From Actinoplanes teichomyceticus ATCC 31121 (lineage in GTDB: Bacteria > Actinomycetota > Actinomycetes > Mycobacteriales > Micromonosporaceae), in assembly GCF_003711105.1 (NCBI RefSeq), contig NZ_CP023865.1, positions 966,001 to 1,030,000 on the forward strand: a DNA stretch of 64,000 bases. The letters run 5' to 3'. The position numbers were made by a program, and so were the translations under genes. Positions within the stretch are counted from its first letter, which is position 1, and each line of letters starts with the position of its first letter. The notes under the pieces were generated by a model. The model ran no database searches and was not told the origin of the DNA. It was given only the letters and a program-made list of their open reading frames with translations. Positions 35,985 to 44,571 of this stretch are shown here, piece after piece.

Positions 35985-38405
35985 GTGCCGATCCGTGGCG
36001 GTCTGCCGCCGCGCAACCCCCGCTTCGTGGGCCGGGAGGAACTGCTCACCCGCGTGCGCGGTCTGCTCGGCAACGGTCCGGTGGTGCTGCTGCCGAGCCC
36101 GGACCACCAGCTCGGCGGTACCGGTCGTACCCAGTTGGCGGTGGAGTATGCCTACCGCCACGCGGACGCCTACGAGCTGGTCTGGTGGATCCCGGCGGAG
36201 CAGAGCGCGGGGATGCGGGCGGCGCTGGCCGGGCTCGCCCAGAAGCTCGGCCTGCCCGAGGCCCGCGACCTCAACCGCACCCTGGGCGCGGTCCGTGACG
36301 CGCTGAGCCGGGGCGAGCCGTACCGGCACTGGCTGGTCGTCTTCGAGAACGCCAACCGGCCCGAGGACATCATGCCGTACCTGCCGTCCGGCGCCGGGCA
36401 CGTGCTGGTGACCAGCCGTAACCCGCGCTGGACCGCCGAGGTGGCGCAGGTGCTGCCGGTGCCGGTGTTCGACCGCTCGGACGCCGTCGACCTGCTCCGC
36501 GGCCGGGTCACCGAGCTGTCCGCGGCGGACGCCGACCGGCTCGCCGACCGGCTCGGCGACGTGCCCATCGCGCTGGACCTGGCGGCCGCCGTACGCGCCG
36601 CCACCGGCTGGCCCGTCGACGAATACCTCGACCGGTACGACCGGCGCGCCGCCGAGCTGGCCTTCCCCACCCCGATCCGGGTCGCCTGGGGGCTGGCCGC
36701 CGAGGCCCTCGACCGCGCCGCCCCGGCCGACCGGGTGCTGCTCGAACTCTGCACCTTCCTGGCCAGCGCCCCGATCTCCTGGCAGCTGCTCTGGGCGGCA
36801 CGCACCCTGCCGCTGGAGGAGGAGGTGGCCCGCACCGTCCGGGTGGAGCGCCGGCTGCGGGCCGCGATGCGGCGGATCGCCCGGTTCGGGCTGGCCGGGC
36901 TGGACCCCTCCGGCGAGCGGCTCACCGTGCACCCGCTGATCCGCGGCATGTTCGGCCAGGAGCTCAGCTCCCAGCGGCACGCCGGGCTGTTGCGGACGGT
37001 GCGCGGGATGCTGGCCGCCGCCGACCCGGGCGACCCGGACAACCCGGCCGGCTGGTACCGCTACGCCGAGCTGGCGCCGCACCTGATCCACTCCGACCTG
37101 CTCGGCGGGGAGGCCGAGGAGGCGCGCCAGCTGGTGATCAACTGCATCCGGTTCCACTACGCCCGCGGCGACTACGACTCCAGCCGCGAACTGGCCGGCG
37201 CCGCGGTGACCCGCTGGCGTGACGCGCTGGGCGAGTCCGCCGAGCAGACCCTGCTCGCCTCGTTCCATCTGGCCAACGCGCTGCGGGCGGTGGGCCGTAC
37301 GGCCGAGGCCCGGAACCTGAACCTGCACACCCTGCGCACCCAGCGGGAGGTGTTCGGCGCCGACGACGAGGCCACCCTGGCCACCGCCAACAGCGTCGGC
37401 GGCGACCTGCGGATGCAGGGCCACTTCGGCCAGGCCCGGCAGCTGGACGCGGACAACCTGGTGCGGTACCGGCGGCTGTTCGGCGAGAGCTTCCCGACCG
37501 CGCTGCGCTGCGCCAACAACCTCGGCATCGACCTGCGCCTGCTCGGCGACTTCCGGGGCGCCCGGGCGCTGGACGAGCAGACCCTGCGGCACCGGCAGGC
37601 GGTCCTCCTCGACGGGCACCCGGAGACGTGGGCGTCGCGGGCCGCGCTCGCCTACGACCTGTTCGGGCTCGGCGACTACGCCGGGGTCGCCGCCGTGCTC
37701 GCCGGGCACGCCGAGCACGTCGCCGAGGATCACCCGTTCGCGCTCTGGGCCGGCCGGCTGACCGCGATGGCCGCGCACCGCCGCGGGCTGCCCGAGGCCC
37801 GTGAGCTGGCCGCCGCCACCCTGGCGGCGTGCCGGCAGCGGTTCGGCGACCTGAGCGTCGACACCCTGGCCACCGCCGTCTCGTCGGCCAACTGCGCCCG
37901 CGCCGCCGGTGACCTGGCCGGCGCGCACGAGCTGCTGGAGCGCGCGGTGATCCGGCTGCACGCGGTGCTCGGCGACGAGCACCCGTTCACCCTGGCCGCC
38001 TCGGCGGGCCTGGCCGGGGTGGTGCGCGCGGCCGGCCGGCACGCCGACGCCCGCACCATCGACGAGGAGGTGCTCGGCGGTCTGCGGCGCAGCGTCGGCG
38101 CCGATCATCCGTTCACGCTCAGCTGCGCCAACGGGCTGGCCGCGGACCTGTTCGCGGCCGGTGAGGCGCAGCGGGCCCGGGAACTGGCCGCGGACACCCT
38201 GCGCCGGTCCCGGGTGGTCCGCGGCGCCGACCATCCGGACACCGCCGCCTGCGCGTGGAACCTGGCGCTCACCGACGGCGACCGGGCGGCCCGTCAGCAG
38301 GCGCTGGCCGCGCTGGCCAAGGCGTACGGCGACGGCCACCCGGTGTTCCGGGCGACCGCCGCCGGGCAGCGGCTGGAGACCGACATCGATCTGCCGCCGC
38401 TGTGA
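35985..38405 (+). CDS. fxsT: FxSxx-COOH system NB-ARC/TPR protein (FxsT-like)
   Basis: Predicted 806-residue protein. The N-terminus PPRNPRFVGREELL followed by an NB-ARC-type ATPase and the phrase LVWWIPAEQ is characteristic of FxsT proteins of FxSxx-COOH systems. Walker A reads GGTGRTQLA: the invariant Lys is Arg, so nucleotide binding may be weakened or lost. From about residue 380 there is a long array of TPR repeats of about 42 residues (FHLANALRAVGRTAEARNLN, CANNLGIDLRLLGDFRGAR). GTG 35985 has GAGGAG upstream. The peptide precursor and putative modifying enzyme lie about 2-6 kb downstream, on the other strand. Confidence 0.75.
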   Translation: MPIRGGLPPRNPRFVGREELLTRVRGLLGNGPVVLLPSPDHQLGGTGRTQLAVEYAYRHADAYELVWWIPAEQSAGMRAALAGLAQKLGLPEARDLNRTLGAVRDALSRGEPYRHWLVVFENANRPEDIMPYLPSGAGHVLVTSRNPRWTAEVAQVLPVPVFDRSDAVDLLRGRVTELSAADADRLADRLGDVPIALDLAAAVRAATGWPVDEYLDRYDRRAAELAFPTPIRVAWGLAAEALDRAAPADRVLLELCTFLASAPISWQLLWAARTLPLEEEVARTVRVERRLRAAMRRIARFGLAGLDPSGERLTVHPLIRGMFGQELSSQRHAGLLRTVRGMLAAADPGDPDNPAGWYRYAELAPHLIHSDLLGGEAEEARQLVINCIRFHYARGDYDSSRELAGAAVTRWRDALGESAEQTLLASFHLANALRAVGRTAEARNLNLHTLRTQREVFGADDEATLATANSVGGDLRMQGHFGQARQLDADNLVRYRRLFGESFPTALRCANNLGIDLRLLGDFRGARALDEQTLRHRQAVLLDGHPETWASRAALAYDLFGLGDYAGVAAVLAGHAEHVAEDHPFALWAGRLTAMAAHRRGLPEARELAAATLAACRQRFGDLSVDTLATAVSSANCARAAGDLAGAHELLERAVIRLHAVLGDEHPFTLAASAGLAGVVRAAGRHADARTIDEEVLGGLRRSVGADHPFTLSCANGLAADLFAAGEAQRARELAADTLRRSRVVRGADHPDTAACAWNLALTDGDRAARQQALAALAKAYGDGHPVFRATAAGQRLETDIDLPPL

Positions 38406-38423: not shown

Positions 38424-40091
38424 TCAGGCGCAGATGTCCCTGTCGGCCTGCCGGTCCAGCAGCTCGGTGACCCCGAGGGCCGGCATCGGGCGGGCGAAGT
38501 GGTACCCCTGCGCCCGGCTGCACGCCAGCTCCCGCAGCCATTCCGCCTGCGCGGCGTCCTCCACGCCCTCGGCCACCGGCGCGAGGTTGAAGGTGCGCGC
38601 GATGTGCAGCACCGCCTCGGCCACCGACGCGCCGCCGCTGTCCGGCATCGCCTGCACGAACGACCGGTCGATCTTGACCACGTCGACCGGCAGCGCGCTC
38701 AGGTGGCTGAGCGAGGAGAAACCGGTGCCGAAGTCGTCCAGCGCGATCCGCACACCGAGCGACTTCAGCTCGCTGAGCACCCGCGCGGACTCCACCAGGT
38801 CGGTCAGCGCGACCGACTCGGTCAGCTCCAGCACCAGGTGCTCCGGATCCAGCCCGGTGCGCTCCAGGATCGCCCGGACCTCGGCGACCAGGTGCGGGTT
38901 GGTCAGCTGGGAGGCGGACAGGTTGACGTTCATCTCGAAGCCGGGGAACTGGCGCTGCCAGTTCACCGCCTGCCGGCAGGCCTCCTCCAGCACCCAGCCG
39001 CCGAGCCGGGGGAGCAGGCCGAGCGACTCCGCCATGTCCAGGAAGACGCCCGGCGGGACCAGGCCACGCTCCGGGTGCCGCCAGCGGACCAGCGCCTCCA
39101 CGCCCACGGTGTGCTCGCCGTCCAGGTCGACGATCGGCTGGTAGTGCACCTCGAACTCGCCCACGTCCAGCGCGCGGAGGATGTCGCCCTCGGCCTTGCG
39201 GCGCTGCTCCTCCAGGGCGAACAGCTCCGGGTCGAACCGGCGCACCGTGCCGCCGCCGTCGAGTTTGGCGCGGTGCAGCGCCTGGTCGGCCTCGCGCAGC
39301 ACGGCGTCGATCCCGCCGCCCGCGGTGATCGCGACCCCGGCGCTGGCCCGGACGCTCATCGTGACGCCGTCGAACTCCAGCGGCCGGTGCATCTCGGTGA
39401 GCACCCGCTCGGCGACCGCGACCGCGGCCTGCTCGTCCTCCAGCCCGGGCAGCAGCACGACGAACTCGTCGCCGTCGAGCCGCGCCACGGTGTCGTTGGC
39501 GCGGACGTTCGCGGCCAGCCGCTCGGCCGCCGCGCGCAGCAGGTCGTCGCCGATCTCGTGGCCGTGGGTCTCGTTCAGCTCGCGGAAGCCGTCCAGATCG
39601 ACCACGATCACCGCGGTCATCGTCCGGCTCGCCTCGGCCAGCTCGTGTCCGGCCCGCTCCAGGAACATGCGGCGGTTGCCGACCCCGGTCAGCGGGTCCC
39701 GGTACGCCTGCCGGGCCAGCAGCGCGCGCTGGGTGCTCAGGTCGCGGATCAGCGCCCCGTCCGAGCCGGCCCCGGCCCAGCGCCGGAACAGCACCGCGAC
39801 GGCCATGCCGAGCAGCAGCCAGATCGCGCCGGCCGCCAACTCACCCTGCACGTGCCGGATGCCGCTGACGGCCAGCGCCGCGGCGGTCGGCGCGAACCGC
39901 AGGATCGGCCGCTCCGGCACGACCAGCAGCATCGCCAGGCCGAGACAGAGCGCCGCGGCCAGCGGCACGAGCCGGGCCGTCCAGGTCACGTCCGCGGCAT
40001 CCGCCGGCCACACCAGCAGTACCAGCGAAGCCAGCACGATGCCGTCGTCGACGACGCGCCGCATCCGGTCCAACAGTGCTCTGCGAGCCAC
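38424..40091 (-). CDS. Membrane GGDEF-EAL cyclic-di-GMP protein
   Basis: Predicted 555-residue protein. About four N-terminal hydrophobic helices (residues 10-115) are followed by a GGDEF domain (about 135-300) whose active loop reads RLDGDEFVVLL, a common actinobacterial variant. The EAL domain follows, with VEALVRWRHPERG, NVNLSASQL, ELTES, DDFGTGFSSL, KIDRSF and AEGVED. The phosphodiesterase residues look complete, so hydrolysis of c-di-GMP is likely; cyclase activity is possible. The GTG at 40091 has GGAGGTGG five bases upstream. It lies between fxsT and the HExxH gene without apparent functional link. Confidence 0.9.
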   Translation of the reverse strand: MARRALLDRMRRVVDDGIVLASLVLLVWPADAADVTWTARLVPLAAALCLGLAMLLVVPERPILRFAPTAAALAVSGIRHVQGELAAGAIWLLLGMAVAVLFRRWAGAGSDGALIRDLSTQRALLARQAYRDPLTGVGNRRMFLERAGHELAEASRTMTAVIVVDLDGFRELNETHGHEIGDDLLRAAAERLAANVRANDTVARLDGDEFVVLLPGLEDEQAAVAVAERVLTEMHRPLEFDGVTMSVRASAGVAITAGGGIDAVLREADQALHRAKLDGGGTVRRFDPELFALEEQRRKAEGDILRALDVGEFEVHYQPIVDLDGEHTVGVEALVRWRHPERGLVPPGVFLDMAESLGLLPRLGGWVLEEACRQAVNWQRQFPGFEMNVNLSASQLTNPHLVAEVRAILERTGLDPEHLVLELTESVALTDLVESARVLSELKSLGVRIALDDFGTGFSSLSHLSALPVDVVKIDRSFVQAMPDSGGASVAEAVLHIARTFNLAPVAEGVEDAAQAEWLRELACSRAQGYHFARPMPALGVTELLDRQADRDICA

Positions 40092-40272
40092 GATCCACCT
40101 CCAGCCGCTCACATCGGGCCGGTGACCGCCCGGTTGAGTGATCCGGCTCGCGTTCCACACCTGCTACCGAACGCAGAACCGCAGGTCAACCGAGTTGCAA
40201 CCGAGCGCCGCCGGGCCGGGGCGGCGGCGTCGCTCGTGCGGCCGGGCGTCCGCCGGCCGGTGCGTCCGCGGG

Positions 40273-41709
40273 TCAGCGCGACAGCCAGGCGGCCAGGTCC
40301 GCGATGTCGGCCTCCGGCGCGGCGAGCGCCGCGGCGCGGACCAGCTCCGGCCGGTGGCGCAGGGCCGGCTGCGGGGCGACGAGAGCGAGCCCGCTCCAGG
40401 CCGCGCCGTCGGCGCGGTCGCGGCGCACAGCTTCCCGGTACGCCGTGAGCGCGGCCGCACCGTCGCCCCGCACACAGGCGGCGTCCGCGGAGCCGGCGGC
40501 CGGAGGGTCGCCGCGCAGCACGGCCCGGATCAGGCGCAGCCGGGAACCCGCATCGGTGACCCGCCGGCCGGGGGCCACCACGGAGGCCACGGCCGGGGCG
40601 GCGCGGCCGGCCCGCCACGCCCGGGCCACGGCGGCCACGTCGTCCGGCGCGATCGTCAGGTTCCGCAGCCGCCAGCGCGCGTGATGGTCGGCCCGGGCCA
40701 GGTCGGCCAGCCGGACCACCTCCGGATCGACCGGCTCGGCCAGCCACGGTTCGACCTCGTCCCGCAGGGCGGTCACCAGCCGGGCGCCCGCCGCGGTCAG
40801 CCGGCCCCCGCCGAGCAGCCGGCCCGCCATCCGGTGCACCGCCGCCCGCCAGCGCGCGAACTCGAACTCGGCCTCACCGCCGCACCCGCCCCGCAGCTCG
40901 GTACGCCAGAAGCGGGTCACGGCGAGGAAGGCGTAGCCCCCGTGCAGGATGCCGAACGTGGGGCGCGGATCCTCCCGCCACGGTGAGTACCCCGGCTCCG
41001 TACCCGGGTGGACCAGCTCGAACAGGCCGTGCACCGCGTTCAGCACGCTGTGCTGCGTCTCGTGCAGCAGCGCGACGGCCAGCTGGACGCCGCTGGCCGG
41101 GGCGGACAGCGCGACCGCGCCGAACGCCTCCGCCGACGTCGCGCTCACCCCCTCGGCGAGCGGGTCCGGCCGGGCCGGGACGATCACCCGCAGCACCCCG
41201 GCGAGCGTGCCGGCCGCCTCCGGGTGCCGGGTGACCAGGATCGTCCAGGCCGCGTCGAGGTGCTCGCGCCACCGCGCCACCTCGTCCGGGCGCAGTGGCG
41301 CGGCGGCGGGCAGGCCGAGCAGGTGGCGCAGCGGGCCGCGGTCGTCGAGCCGGACGGTCAGGCGGCGCCCGGCGCAGGTCACGCTGAGCGGGTGCCCGGC
41401 CGGCTCGGGCAGGTCGCCGAGCGCCGCCCGGCCGGGTTCGGCGGGCGGGCCGGTGCGGAGAGCGGCGAGCGCTCGGGCCGCCCACAGGCCGGTCATCGGG
41501 TCGGCGCAGTGGGCGCGGAACTCGTCGGAGCTCAGCGCGTGCAGCCGTACGTACCAGGCGGGGTCCTCGGCGACCGCGCGCCGCACCTCCCGCAACAGGA
41601 GCAGATGGCGGCTGAGCCGGGCTCGGCGCAGCACGCCGAGCGCGCCGGCCGAGGGCCGGCCGGCGCCGAGGCCGGCCAGCTCGGCGTCGGCGAGCCGGAA
41701 CGGGTGCAA
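40273..41709 (-). CDS. HExxH-type putative peptide beta-hydroxylase of an FxSxx-COOH locus
   Basis: Predicted 478-residue protein with LLHETQHSVLNA: His216, Glu217 and His220 form the HExxH motif of the RiPP-associated family once called HEXXH-motif putative peptide modification protein. Members of that family have been reported as alpha-ketoglutarate-dependent peptide beta-hydroxylases. In many FxSxx-COOH systems this domain is fused to the radical SAM enzyme FxsB; here it stands alone and has no CxxxCxxC motif. The N-terminal 190 residues are helical, and the C-terminal 150 rich in Ala/Arg helices. The start is a TTG at 41709, 14 bases after the stop of the FNSAL precursor, so the two are coupled. 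No ribosome site is evident for it. Confidence 0.75.
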   Translation of the reverse strand: MHPFRLADAELAGLGAGRPSAGALGVLRRARLSRHLLLLREVRRAVAEDPAWYVRLHALSSDEFRAHCADPMTGLWAARALAALRTGPPAEPGRAALGDLPEPAGHPLSVTCAGRRLTVRLDDRGPLRHLLGLPAAAPLRPDEVARWREHLDAAWTILVTRHPEAAGTLAGVLRVIVPARPDPLAEGVSATSAEAFGAVALSAPASGVQLAVALLHETQHSVLNAVHGLFELVHPGTEPGYSPWREDPRPTFGILHGGYAFLAVTRFWRTELRGGCGGEAEFEFARWRAAVHRMAGRLLGGGRLTAAGARLVTALRDEVEPWLAEPVDPEVVRLADLARADHHARWRLRNLTIAPDDVAAVARAWRAGRAAPAVASVVAPGRRVTDAGSRLRLIRAVLRGDPPAAGSADAACVRGDGAAALTAYREAVRRDRADGAAWSGLALVAPQPALRHRPELVRAAALAAPEADIADLAAWLSR

Positions 41710-41723
41710 CGGAGCCGGGCCGT

Positions 41724-41912
41724 TCAGAGCGCCGAGTTAAAGCCGGCGATCTGCTCGCTTGGGCCGGCCAGATCGTCGGCCAGGCGGCGCAGACAGCGCT
41801 CCAGCGCGGAGTCGTCGCGGGCGACCAGCTCGGCCAGGGTGGATCCGGAGACGTCGAGCATCGCGGACTGCCACTCCGGCGCGTGTCCGTCGTCCGGCTG
41901 ACCGGTCTCCAC
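41724..41912 (-). CDS. fxsA: FxSxx-COOH precursor peptide (FxsA-like)
   Basis: Predicted 62-residue peptide ending in A-G-F-N-S-A-L, an exact match to the F-x-S-x-x-COOH rule (Phe58, Ser60, free C-terminus Leu62). The body also fits the family: LDVSGSTLAELVARDDSALERCLRRLA. The GTG at 41912 is preceded by GAGAGGGGGG at good spacing. The stop is followed 14 bases later by the HExxH gene. In related systems the C-terminal residues are modified by the radical SAM/SPASM enzyme FxsB and sometimes by a HExxH hydroxylase; no FxsB gene is present in this window. Confidence 0.85.
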   Translation of the reverse strand: METGQPDDGHAPEWQSAMLDVSGSTLAELVARDDSALERCLRRLADDLAGPSEQIAGFNSAL

Positions 41913-42076
41913 GGCACCCCCCTCTCGATCGTGGCGGTCGATGCGTTGCTTGAAGGTTACGGCGGTCGCCGGGTCGGGTGAGCGCCGGGAGTCGCTACCG
42001 TGGGTGCTCGCGGGGATGGCGCGGTCGTGATCTGATGGGACAACACCACCGCGATTCGGTAACGGAGGGCGAGAAC

Positions 42077-42643
42077 GTGCTGGGTGGAGATCTGGGCGCT
42101 GGCGACGGCGCGCCCCGCCCGCGGGGCGCGGCAGCCGCGTTGGCGGACCGGGTGGCGACGCTGCGCGCGTCGGCCTCCGGTGCGGACGGCGCGATCCTGG
42201 TCACCGTGGCGAGTTCCGGCAATGTGACCGGGCTGCAGCTGGACGAACGCTGTCTGGGCCTGGGCGCGCCCGGCCTGGCGGCGGAGATCCTCTCGACCGT
42301 CCGGCGGGCCCAGTCGGCGCTGGCCGACCGGGTCGCGGACGCGGTCGAGCAGACCGTCGGCGCGCGGACCGAGACCGGCCGGGCCGTGCTCGACAGCTTC
42401 GCGCGGCGCTTTCCGGCGGAGCCGGACGGGTGGCGCGGGCCGGCGGAGCCGGACGGGTGGCGCGGGCCCGCGGAGCCGGACGGGTGGCGCGGGCCCGCGG
42501 AGCTGGGCGAATGGTCCGGGGCGGACGCCGCCCCGGTGATGCCGGCGCCGCCGCCGTTCCCGTCCTTCACCGCCACCCCGACGTTGCCGCACCAGACGCC
42601 GGGCAACGGGTTCGAGAGCGGGCGGGACAGCCGTGCACGCTGA
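42077..42643 (+). CDS. YbaB/EbfC-like small protein with repeat tail
   Basis: Predicted 188-residue protein. Residues about 15-115 resemble the YbaB DNA-binding-like fold as found in ESX-associated actinobacterial proteins: ADRVATLRASASGADGAILV, then the strand VTVASSGNVTGLQLDE and helix AAEILSTVRRAQSALADRV. The tail contains three exact AEPDGWRGP-type repeats, then a Pro-rich end. GTG 42077 has GGAGGGC upstream. It overlaps the next gene by 11 bases. Function is unknown; YbaB proteins bind DNA as dimers, and the surrounding genes are DNA-processing enzymes. Confidence 0.6.
   Translation: MLGGDLGAGDGAPRPRGAAAALADRVATLRASASGADGAILVTVASSGNVTGLQLDERCLGLGAPGLAAEILSTVRRAQSALADRVADAVEQTVGARTETGRAVLDSFARRFPAEPDGWRGPAEPDGWRGPAEPDGWRGPAELGEWSGADAAPVMPAPPPFPSFTATPTLPHQTPGNGFESGRDSRAR
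42416..42496. repeat. Three 27-bp tandem repeats inside the YbaB-like gene
   Basis: Three consecutive copies of a 27-bp unit beginning GCGGAGCCGGACGGGTGG differ by a single base. They encode a nine-residue repeat containing one Trp per unit. Confidence 0.92.
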
Positions 42644-43025
42644 GCCGAGCCCTCGCCTGCCGCGGCGCGGACCGGCGCCGCCGGTCGACCGGATGAGCAA
42701 CGCCGAGCTGGCCCGGATGGTCGAGGCCGAGCATCCCTACCGGGGCAAGGCGCTCTTCGAGCTCTGCGACCGGTTGCCGCACGACGACGACGCGGTCGGC
42801 AAGGTGGCGATGCTGACCCGGCTCACCTCGCTGCGCCGGGCCCGGCTGTTCGACCGGGTGTCGCTGGCCTGGTCGGCGATCATCGCGCTGCTCGCGGCGG
42901 AGACGGCGAACGCGCGGGGCGAGGCGTATGCCGCCTTCCGGGCGCTGGATCCCGACGAGCAACGGGACATGCTGGACTATCTGGAGGTCACCGCGATCGA
43001 GGAGGCCCACCCGCGCATCGCGTGA
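42633..43025 (+). CDS. Small helical hypothetical protein
   Basis: Predicted 130-residue protein starting at GTG 42633 inside the end of the YbaB-like gene, so the two are coupled. After a Pro/Arg-rich start it is mostly helical (MSNAELARMVEAEHPY, then LFDRVSLAWSAIIALLAAET), with no family recognised and no signal peptide. The pairing of a YbaB-like protein and a small helical partner recurs near ESX/WXG100-type genes in actinobacteria, but none of those is present here. An inverted repeat over its stop may end transcription. Confidence 0.6.
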   Translation: MHAEPSPRLPRRGPAPPVDRMSNAELARMVEAEHPYRGKALFELCDRLPHDDDAVGKVAMLTRLTSLRRARLFDRVSLAWSAIIALLAAETANARGEAYAAFRALDPDEQRDMLDYLEVTAIEEAHPRIA

Positions 43026-43044: not shown

Positions 43045-43329
43045 CTAGCTCTGCACCTGCACGTCCTTGCGGAAGGCGATGCGGTCACGGATCGCCGCCG
43101 CGTCCGGCTTCGGGTCCGGGTAGTACCACGCGGCGTCCGCGACGGTCTGCCCGTCGGTGCGCAGCGAGTAGTACGACGCCCTGCCCTTCCACGGGCAGAC
43201 GGTGTGCGTGTCGGAGGGGATGAGCAGGTCCTCGCGGACCGAGGCGCGAGGGAAGTAGTAATTCCCCTCGATCACCACCGTGTCGTCGCTCTCCGCGATC
43301 ACTTCGTCGTTCCAGATGGCCTTAGGCAT
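43045..43329 (-). CDS. DUF427 family protein
   Basis: Predicted 94-residue cytoplasmic protein matching DUF427. It has KAIWNDEVIAESDDTVVIEGNYYFP, then THTVCPWKGRASYYSLR and AAWYYPDPKP, in the usual order and length. The family forms a small beta-rich fold with a conserved Cys-Pro-Trp-Lys-Gly motif; biochemical role is not established. The ATG at 43329 lies in a relatively AT-rich spot, which also serves as upstream region for the divergent Cas4-like gene. Confidence 0.9.
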   Translation of the reverse strand: MPKAIWNDEVIAESDDTVVIEGNYYFPRASVREDLLIPSDTHTVCPWKGRASYYSLRTDGQTVADAAWYYPDPKPDAAAIRDRIAFRKDVQVQS

Positions 43330-43488: not shown

Positions 43489-44571
43489 ATGACCCGGCTC
43501 GACCAGCTGCGCGGCCCCGGGAAGGCCAAGCGGCACAACGCTCGCACGATCGCCGCCCTCACCGGCAATCCCGGCTGCAACCGGCGTGCCGTGCTGGACG
43601 CGGCGGGCGTGGACAAGCTCAAGCTGGCCGAGGCGGTCGGCTTCCCGGGCAGCTTCGGCCAGTCCCGGTTCGCGCTCACCCGTGGCAACGCGTTCGAGGC
43701 GATGCTCAAGGCCGACGACTGCGCGCTGCTGCGCTCGGCGCTCGGCGCCGGCGACGCGAAGCTGCGCTACCAGGATCTCGGCGCGGACTCCGACGACACG
43801 CTCACCGACCGGCACGAGCGCACGCTGCGGCTGCTGGCCGGGGCCGAGGCCGCGCTGATCGACCACCCGCTGCTCACCCTGGAGGTGGCCGGCCAGACCG
43901 TCTACCTGGAGCCCGACCTGGTGGCGTACGCGCATCGGGGCCGCCTGCAGGTCGTCGAGATCAAGTCGTTCGCGATCGTGGACGGCCAGGCGGACAGCGC
44001 CAAGGTCTCCGCCGCCGCGACCCAGGCCGCGGTCTACGTGCTCGCGCTGCGTGAGCTGCTCGGCCGGCTGGGCATGGACCCGCTGCTGGTCGACCACGAG
44101 GTCATCCTGGTGTGCCCGGAGAACTTCGCGATGCGCCCGGTCGCGGTGCGGCTGGACGTCCGCAAGCAGCTGGCCACGCTGCGCCGGCAGCTGTCCCGGC
44201 TGTCCTCGGTCGGCGACCTGATCGCCGCACTGCCGGACGGGCTGACGTTCGACCCGAGCCGGCCGGCCGAGGAGCTGACCGCGGCGCTCGGCCACGTGGC
44301 GCCGCGCTACGCCCCGGAATGCCTGTCCACCTGCGAACTCTCGGTGTTCTGCCGGCACGAGGCGGCGGGAACCACCGGGGCGCTGGGACGGCCGGTGCGG
44401 GAGGCGCTGGGCGGCATCGAGAGTGTGGCCGAGGTGCTCGCGCTGGCGTCCGGGGCCCGCGAGCCGGAGCCGGCGCAGGCCGAGGCCGCCGCCCTCCTGC
44501 GCGCCGCGCTGCGCCTGCGCGAGGAGGCGGTCGCCGCCGCGGACGGCTCCCGGGCCGGGGCCGCCCGTTGA
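43489..44571 (+). CDS. Cas4/RecB-like Fe-S nuclease
   Basis: Predicted 360-residue protein with PD-(D/E)xK nuclease features. EPDLVAY and then VVEIKSFA give the Asp and Glu-x-Lys of the active site, with a Gln in ATQAAVYVLAL nearby. One N-terminal cysteine (Cys30) and a C-terminal trio (Cys278, Cys282, Cys288; C-x3-C-x5-C) would hold a 4Fe-4S cluster as in Cas4, Dna2 and AddB; the first gap is one residue longer than the usual C-x2-C. It overlaps the next gene as TTGA. No cas1, cas2 or CRISPR array is visible, so this is not a CRISPR Cas4. Nearby prim-pol and SF1 helicase genes suggest a DNA repair or defence role. Confidence 0.7.
   Translation: MTRLDQLRGPGKAKRHNARTIAALTGNPGCNRRAVLDAAGVDKLKLAEAVGFPGSFGQSRFALTRGNAFEAMLKADDCALLRSALGAGDAKLRYQDLGADSDDTLTDRHERTLRLLAGAEAALIDHPLLTLEVAGQTVYLEPDLVAYAHRGRLQVVEIKSFAIVDGQADSAKVSAAATQAAVYVLALRELLGRLGMDPLLVDHEVILVCPENFAMRPVAVRLDVRKQLATLRRQLSRLSSVGDLIAALPDGLTFDPSRPAEELTAALGHVAPRYAPECLSTCELSVFCRHEAAGTTGALGRPVREALGGIESVAEVLALASGAREPEPAQAEAAALLRAALRLREEAVAAADGSRAGAAR

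Follow-up and report, generated by a model that had tools for sequence, protein, structure and literature searches.

A split FxSxx-COOH peptide cassette in Actinoplanes teichomyceticus, probably completed by an FxsB encoded elsewhere in the genome

Introduction

How is an FxSxx-COOH precursor peptide modified when the radical SAM enzyme of its system, FxsB, is not encoded beside it? This question is raised by a locus of Actinoplanes teichomyceticus ATCC 31121 that lies in a stretch of 64,000 nucleotides (positions 966,001 to 1,030,000 of NZ_CP023865.1; hereafter the window). An initial annotation had described there an FxsA-like peptide ending in FNSAL, followed after 14 bases by a stand-alone protein with the HExxH motif HETQH, and had noted that no radical SAM gene was present in the 64 kb. 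It left two alternatives, namely that the peptide is modified by hydroxylation only or that FxsB acts from elsewhere in the genome, and suggested a genome-wide search for FxsB together with an analysis of co-occurrence. Our analysis of the locus, its relatives and the FxsB genes of the genus points to a split, triceptide-type FxSxx-COOH RiPP cassette, in which FxsB probably acts in trans and the HExxH enzyme then hydroxylates the peptide.

Results

FxsA, a HExxH enzyme and FxsT form one cassette

The genes and motifs of the locus are listed in Table 1. FxsA combines a match above the TIGR04268 cut-off with the F-x-S-x-x C-terminus of its family, and the HExxH enzyme, with its HETQH motif intact, likewise exceeds the cut-off of the aKG-HExxH family TIGR04267. 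Since both proteins pass curated NCBIfam cut-offs, the pair is not due to chance, and the initial annotation was correct in the pairing as well as in the C-terminus, coordinates, 14-base gap between fxsA and the HExxH gene, and metal-binding motif that it gave. It had passed over FxsT, which was found by a profile match to NF040586, approximately 1.9 kb from the HExxH gene and convergent with the GGDEF-EAL gene. The presence of FxsT in the cluster makes the FxsA/HExxH pair part of an FxSxx cassette and not a stray couple. Upstream of fxsA lie genes for a YbaB-like protein and an unnamed protein of 130 aa, and further upstream those for a DUF427 protein and an unnamed protein of 360 aa; neither unnamed protein matched any family above its cut-off in the two profile scans, which covered eight and seven genes.

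Table 1. Features of the cassette and its surroundings (positions in the window)
Feature	Position	Strand	Evidence or remark
fxsA, 62-aa FxSxx-COOH precursor, ends FNSAL	41724-41912	-	TIGR04268 equivalog, 40 bits (cut-off 28)
C-terminal core IAGFNSAL, FxsA residues 55-62	41727-41750	-	
Stand-alone aKG-HExxH peptide beta-hydroxylase (predicted), TTG start, 478 aa	40273-41709	-	TIGR04267, 156.2 bits (cut-off 40)
HETQH metal-binding motif, residues 216-220 of HExxH enzyme	41050-41064	-	
His256 of HExxH enzyme, candidate third metal ligand	40942-40944	-	putative role
GGDEF-EAL protein	38424-40160	-	same strand, 112 bases after HExxH gene
fxsT, FxSxx-COOH system TPR protein, P-loop GGTGRT	35985-38405	+	NF040586, 775.4 bits (cut-off 300)
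YbaB-like protein	41978-42643		
Unnamed 130-aa protein	42633-43025		
DUF427 protein	43045-43329		
Unnamed 360-aa protein	43489-44571		

The HExxH enzyme matched the solved structure of ChlH (8s5f) in a profile comparison (E 2e-12), while its C-terminal part is TPR-like, as judged by a profile match to designed TPR proteins. H216, E217 and H220 of the motif are invariant in an alignment of 32 HExxH orthologues, as is His256. The position of the latter is occupied by His in ChlH (8s5f), by Gln in 22nu and by Gln in most FxsB-linked HExxH proteins, with exceptions that include L095, L096, L103 and L189. Because ChlH also carries a histidine at the aligned position, we infer that His256 may act as a metal ligand.

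The P-loop of the window-type FxsT is unusual: 33 of 35 sequences have arginine in place of the Walker A lysine (GGTGRT), the remaining two being one GGVGRT and one match without the P-loop region. Two FxsT paralogues in the source genome have GKS or GKT at this site, and the window-type protein may bind nucleotide without normal turnover.

FxsB is missing from the locus and encoded elsewhere

A search of the whole 8.29 Mb genome with the radical SAM profile PF04055 (E<=0.01) returned 27 matches, none of which falls in the window (G000:C1:966001-1030000), bearing out the local absence of radical SAM genes. FxsB itself was found elsewhere in the genome, with two proteins above the cut-off of 370 bits for TIGR04269, a family that we take to correspond to IPR026335. 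These two matches reject the view that the genome lacks FxsB.

One of them, at 898605, scored 443.5 bits, retains CxxxCxxC and lies approximately 108 kb upstream of the window pair. This fxsB is solo, and no HExxH gene, FxsT gene or small ORF ending in FxSxx was found in the 19.9 kb around it. An adjoining ORF of 101 aa was considered as a conserved partner and rejected, having no convincing match in any of 29 further FxsB loci, solo or clustered. The other FxsB, at 4331776, scored 526.8 bits and is fused to a HExxH domain (FxsBH); its cluster, at 4.33 Mb, also contains an FxsA-like ORF ending in FGSAI, a TIR-like FxsC and FxsT. The precursor of this cluster is unlike the FxsA of the window and matched no NCBIfam family at E<=0.001. 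TIGR04268, the scoring of which took in 150 of 624 candidates, could thus not serve as a complete census of FxsA, as it did not report the FGSAI precursor.

At 5.02 Mb (L026:8337-16177) a third cassette was noticed, in which an ORF ending in SGYNPQRLTD is accompanied by a HExxH protein of 608 aa and by an FxsT that carries a fused SAV_2336 domain at its N-terminus; the fetched stretch contains no FxsB. It is possibly of the RxD type, as this is described in the available text of PMC7159879.

The split arrangement is conserved

With the alignment of HExxH orthologues, 65 loci were retrieved from named genomes; 34 of them (L058-L090 and L098, usually with 10 kb on each side and less at contig ends) are orthologous to the locus of the window and span Actinoplanes, Paractinoplanes, Amorphoplanes, Winogradskya, Couchioplanes, Spirilliplanes and allies. 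FxsA, the HExxH enzyme and FxsT are present in all 34, and FxsB in the fetched DNA of none. The GGDEF-EAL gene separates the HExxH gene from FxsT in 31 of the 34, a possible sign that c-di-GMP controls the peptide system, and the YbaB-like, 130-aa, DUF427 and 360-aa upstream neighbours recur in 34, 33, 34 and 34 loci, respectively.

More distant actinobacterial loci include eight in which FxsB directly precedes the HExxH gene (L092, L094, L095, L096, L099, L101, L103 and L104) and five that have the HExxH gene but from whose fetched DNA FxsB is absent (L091, L093, L097, L100 and L102). In two of the eight, L092 from Parafrankia and L099 from Pseudofrankia, the genes follow the unsplit order fxsA-fxsB-HExxH-fxsT, fxsT being encoded on the other strand, and FxsA ends in IAGFQSSI or IAGFKSSI. 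The window shares this order and orientation, with the core IAGFNSAL, but is without fxsB.

Across 62 genomes (61 of the source genus plus G028), the HExxH orthologue (>=49% identity) and a window-type FxsA (>=69 bits) occur in the same 45, and a window-type FxsT (>=67% identity) in these 45 and five further genomes. In these five (G164, G206, G232, G244 and G246; loci L261-L265) the block is kept while FxsA and the HExxH enzyme are absent, with the GGDEF-EAL gene retained in four; as these loci keep FxsT without FxsA or the HExxH enzyme, FxsT can persist without the peptide.

A search for homologues of the window FxsA found 22, itself included. The 77 window-type loci encode 45 distinct FxsA sequences, all with the tail AGFNSA plus a final L, I, V or F, whereas the remainder of the sequence diverges. 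Within the cyclophane motif, Phe and Ser are thus invariant in 45/45 distinct sequences, and so is Asn59. FxsB-linked precursors elsewhere vary at this middle position (FQS, FKS, FGS, FAS, FSS, FTS), although FNS also occurs in eight of them (L175-L177, L182-L184, L186 and L193). Asn59 is therefore fixed in the partner peptide of the HExxH enzyme but not unique to it, and is a candidate site of hydroxylation.

FxsB accompanies the locus across the genus

The co-occurrence analysis showed the HExxH enzyme (E<=1e-55) in 49 and FxsB (E<=1e-90) in 64 of 67 source-genus genomes, with FxsB encoded by 49/49 HExxH carriers. The three genomes without an FxsB match at this threshold (G200, G230 and G240) are all without the locus, and all 45 carriers among the 62 genomes have an FxsB match.

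FxsB was scored as solo when there was no HExxH gene within ~4 kb, no FxsT within ~5 kb and no adjacent FxsA-like ORF, in flanks of ~8 kb on each side where the contig allowed; the contexts in G155 and G192 end at the contig end ~300 bases from the gene. By this definition a solo FxsB is present in 35 of 45 locus-bearing genomes and in none of 17 locus-free genomes (Fisher p ~1e-8, uncorrected for relatedness), or in 1/17 if a remote solo relative in G244 (41% identity) is counted. In this count, G111 was entered once despite two solo-labelled rows, G218 was included although its FxsB copy is in pieces, and G182 was excluded on account of an adjacent ORF ending in FGSAIG, taking the figure from 36/45 to 35/45. 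Among the 40 rows labelled solo in the tree, three remote ones (L205_G244, L207_G178 and L208_G248; 31-41% identity) are probably not FxsB orthologues and were therefore left out of the count. With FxsB in 49/49 carriers and a solo copy in 35/45, the second alternative of the initial annotation, FxsB acting from elsewhere, is favoured over hydroxylation only.

Nine carriers (G056, G119, G126, G170, G180, G184, G190, G226 and G238) have a single FxsB match (E<=1e-30), which is solo, together with a single window-type FxsA match. The ten carriers without solo FxsB (G090, G130, G149, G172, G176, G182, G188, G210, G220 and G236) have their FxsBs in other clusters or as fused-looking long frames. 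Such long-frame matches were mostly left out of the context set, with L025 and L200-L202 as stand-ins in the tree; the other fetched FxsBs of locus-free genomes are next to a HExxH or FxsT gene or are fused, several long-frame ones falling outside the sample. The five genomes that keep the block but lack FxsA and the HExxH enzyme have no solo FxsB, the remote relative in G244 excepted. The CxxxCxxC motif is kept in 37/37 FxsB rows checked, and the aligned part is free of stops in 34/37.

ORFs ending in FxSxx but unlike FxsA were found 0.7-4 kb from solo FxsB in L224, L227 (which also has a weak FxsT match of 74 bits, >6 kb away), L249 and L250, and looser FxS-tailed ORFs near a few other solo FxsBs; we judged these to be chance occurrences. 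In L179, L180, L181, L185 and L188, two FxsB genes ~7 kb from each other flank an FxsT match, and precursor-like ORFs ending in TNFVS or NNFVS, an unusual tail for an FxsB substrate, precede one FxsB of each pair.

The solo FxsBs do not form one relocated clade: the tree needs 16 label changes for the 40 solo rows, and a 52-row FxsB clade is a mixture of 31 solo with 21 clustered rows. Scattered in this manner, they do not reflect one simple relocation. Nor can the co-occurrence be taken as statistically independent evidence. Mapped on an rpoB tree, the locus shows only four changes, with independent pairs averaging 1.2 in the same direction and 0 in the opposite one, and a sign test on four changes cannot reach 0.05; a test corrected for relatedness is thus almost powerless, and 35/45 versus 0/17 is to be read as a non-independent comparison.

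Discussion

We consider it probable that the window encodes a split cassette, whose cyclophane-forming FxsB would be supplied in trans, in the source genome most likely from the solo fxsB ~108 kb upstream. MscB (IPR026335) makes Phe-Ser cyclophanes that join Phe C4 to Ser C-beta, according to the available text of PMC11002830, and by analogy FxsB is predicted to join C4 of Phe58 to C-beta of Ser60. A beta-hydroxylation of the peptide by the HExxH enzyme is predicted to follow; its site may be Asn59, within the ring.

The leading alternative, which we nonetheless regard as unlikely, is that the HExxH enzyme acts alone on linear FxsA, that no cyclophane is made and that FxsB serves other peptides. 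The absence of FxsB from the fetched DNA of 34/34 orthologous loci, and of L091, L093, L097, L100 and L102, is consistent with this, as are the pathways of PflC/PosC and PesO, for which the available text of PMC12636437 and PMC13060819 lists no radical SAM partner; moreover, the tree-placed FxsBs of G149, G182 and G220 lie outside the main clade, in other clusters. However, a hydroxylase acting alone would not obviously need the Phe and Ser that are invariant in 45/45 sequences, FxsB is encoded by 49/49 carriers, and the solo FxsBs would be left without a known substrate. That the HExxH enzyme hydroxylates a linear FxS peptide for which the FxSxx tail is the hydroxylase recognition signal, giving a radical SAM-independent branch of FxSxx RiPPs, seems no likelier.

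It is less probable again that an FxsB from another cluster, such as the FxsBH at 4.33 Mb, serves the window FxsA in place of the solo enzyme. FxsBH (524 bits) is present in the source genome together with an FxsA-like ORF ending in FGSAI, and 10/45 carriers are without solo FxsB. In contrast, the nine carriers mentioned above have only one FxsB match, a solo one, and the FxsBH precursor is unlike the window FxsA and without an NCBIfam match at E<=0.001.

We think it very unlikely that the HExxH protein acts as a metallopeptidase, cleaving FxsA so that a C-terminal peptide with signal or toxin function is set free. Such an activity was predicted in 2020 for zincin-like enzymes beside FxSxx peptides, in the available sections of PMC7159879, and proteolysis by PflC in the absence of the leader peptide appears in the accessible part of PMC12636437, but the family was later described, in the same part of that paper and of PMC13060819, as Fe/aKG-dependent oxygenases. 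Finally, a decaying cassette that has lost FxsB, with FxsA and the HExxH enzyme as remnants, is scarcely credible: while five genomes lack FxsA and the HExxH enzyme in a kept block, the core and the metal motif are invariant across strongly diverged orthologues.

The split cassette that we favour resembles several known systems. As in FxSxx-COOH systems (TIGR04268, TIGR04269, TIGR04267, NF040586), FxsA, the HExxH enzyme and FxsT are present above their cut-offs, but the place of fxsB between fxsA and the HExxH gene is empty, fxsB being encoded elsewhere, and fxsT is preceded by a GGDEF-EAL gene. ChlB/ChlH and fused rSAM-aKG-HExxH enzymes (Morishita 2024, as cited in the available text of PMC12636437 and PMC13060819) share with the window the HExxH family, by profile match, and a substrate with a cyclophane motif, and ChlH also His at the candidate third-ligand site. 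The window enzyme, in contrast, is stand-alone, actinobacterial and paired with an FxS motif, and its activity is a predicted one. The VMAP-linked or stand-alone peptide-processing systems, as far as the available text of PMC7159879 describes them, likewise have an FxSxx peptide, a zincin-like HExxH protein and an AP-ATPase-TPR protein, but those of the FxSxx type also have a radical SAM gene, which the window locus is without; for the products of this wider group, a role as toxin or as signal connected with AP-ATPase effectors was proposed there. PflC/PosC and PesO are, like the window enzyme, stand-alone aKG-HExxH enzymes acting on RiPP precursors, whereas their clusters, in the accessible sections of PMC12636437 and PMC13060819, hold MNIO enzymes and their peptides are unrelated to the window FxsA.

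The locus is thus a variant of the known FxSxx systems that has its FxsB encoded at another site and that is widespread in one bacterial group; text searches of openly licensed papers brought up none that evidently treats a split arrangement of FxsA and FxsB. With the two FxSxx enzymes genetically apart across a bacterial group, single gene deletions can test whether the hydroxylase depends on the cyclophane, and likewise the reach of FxsB in trans. Peptide mining around FxsB alone would miss a conserved precursor of the window type, and solo FxsB genes may have substrates that are encoded elsewhere.
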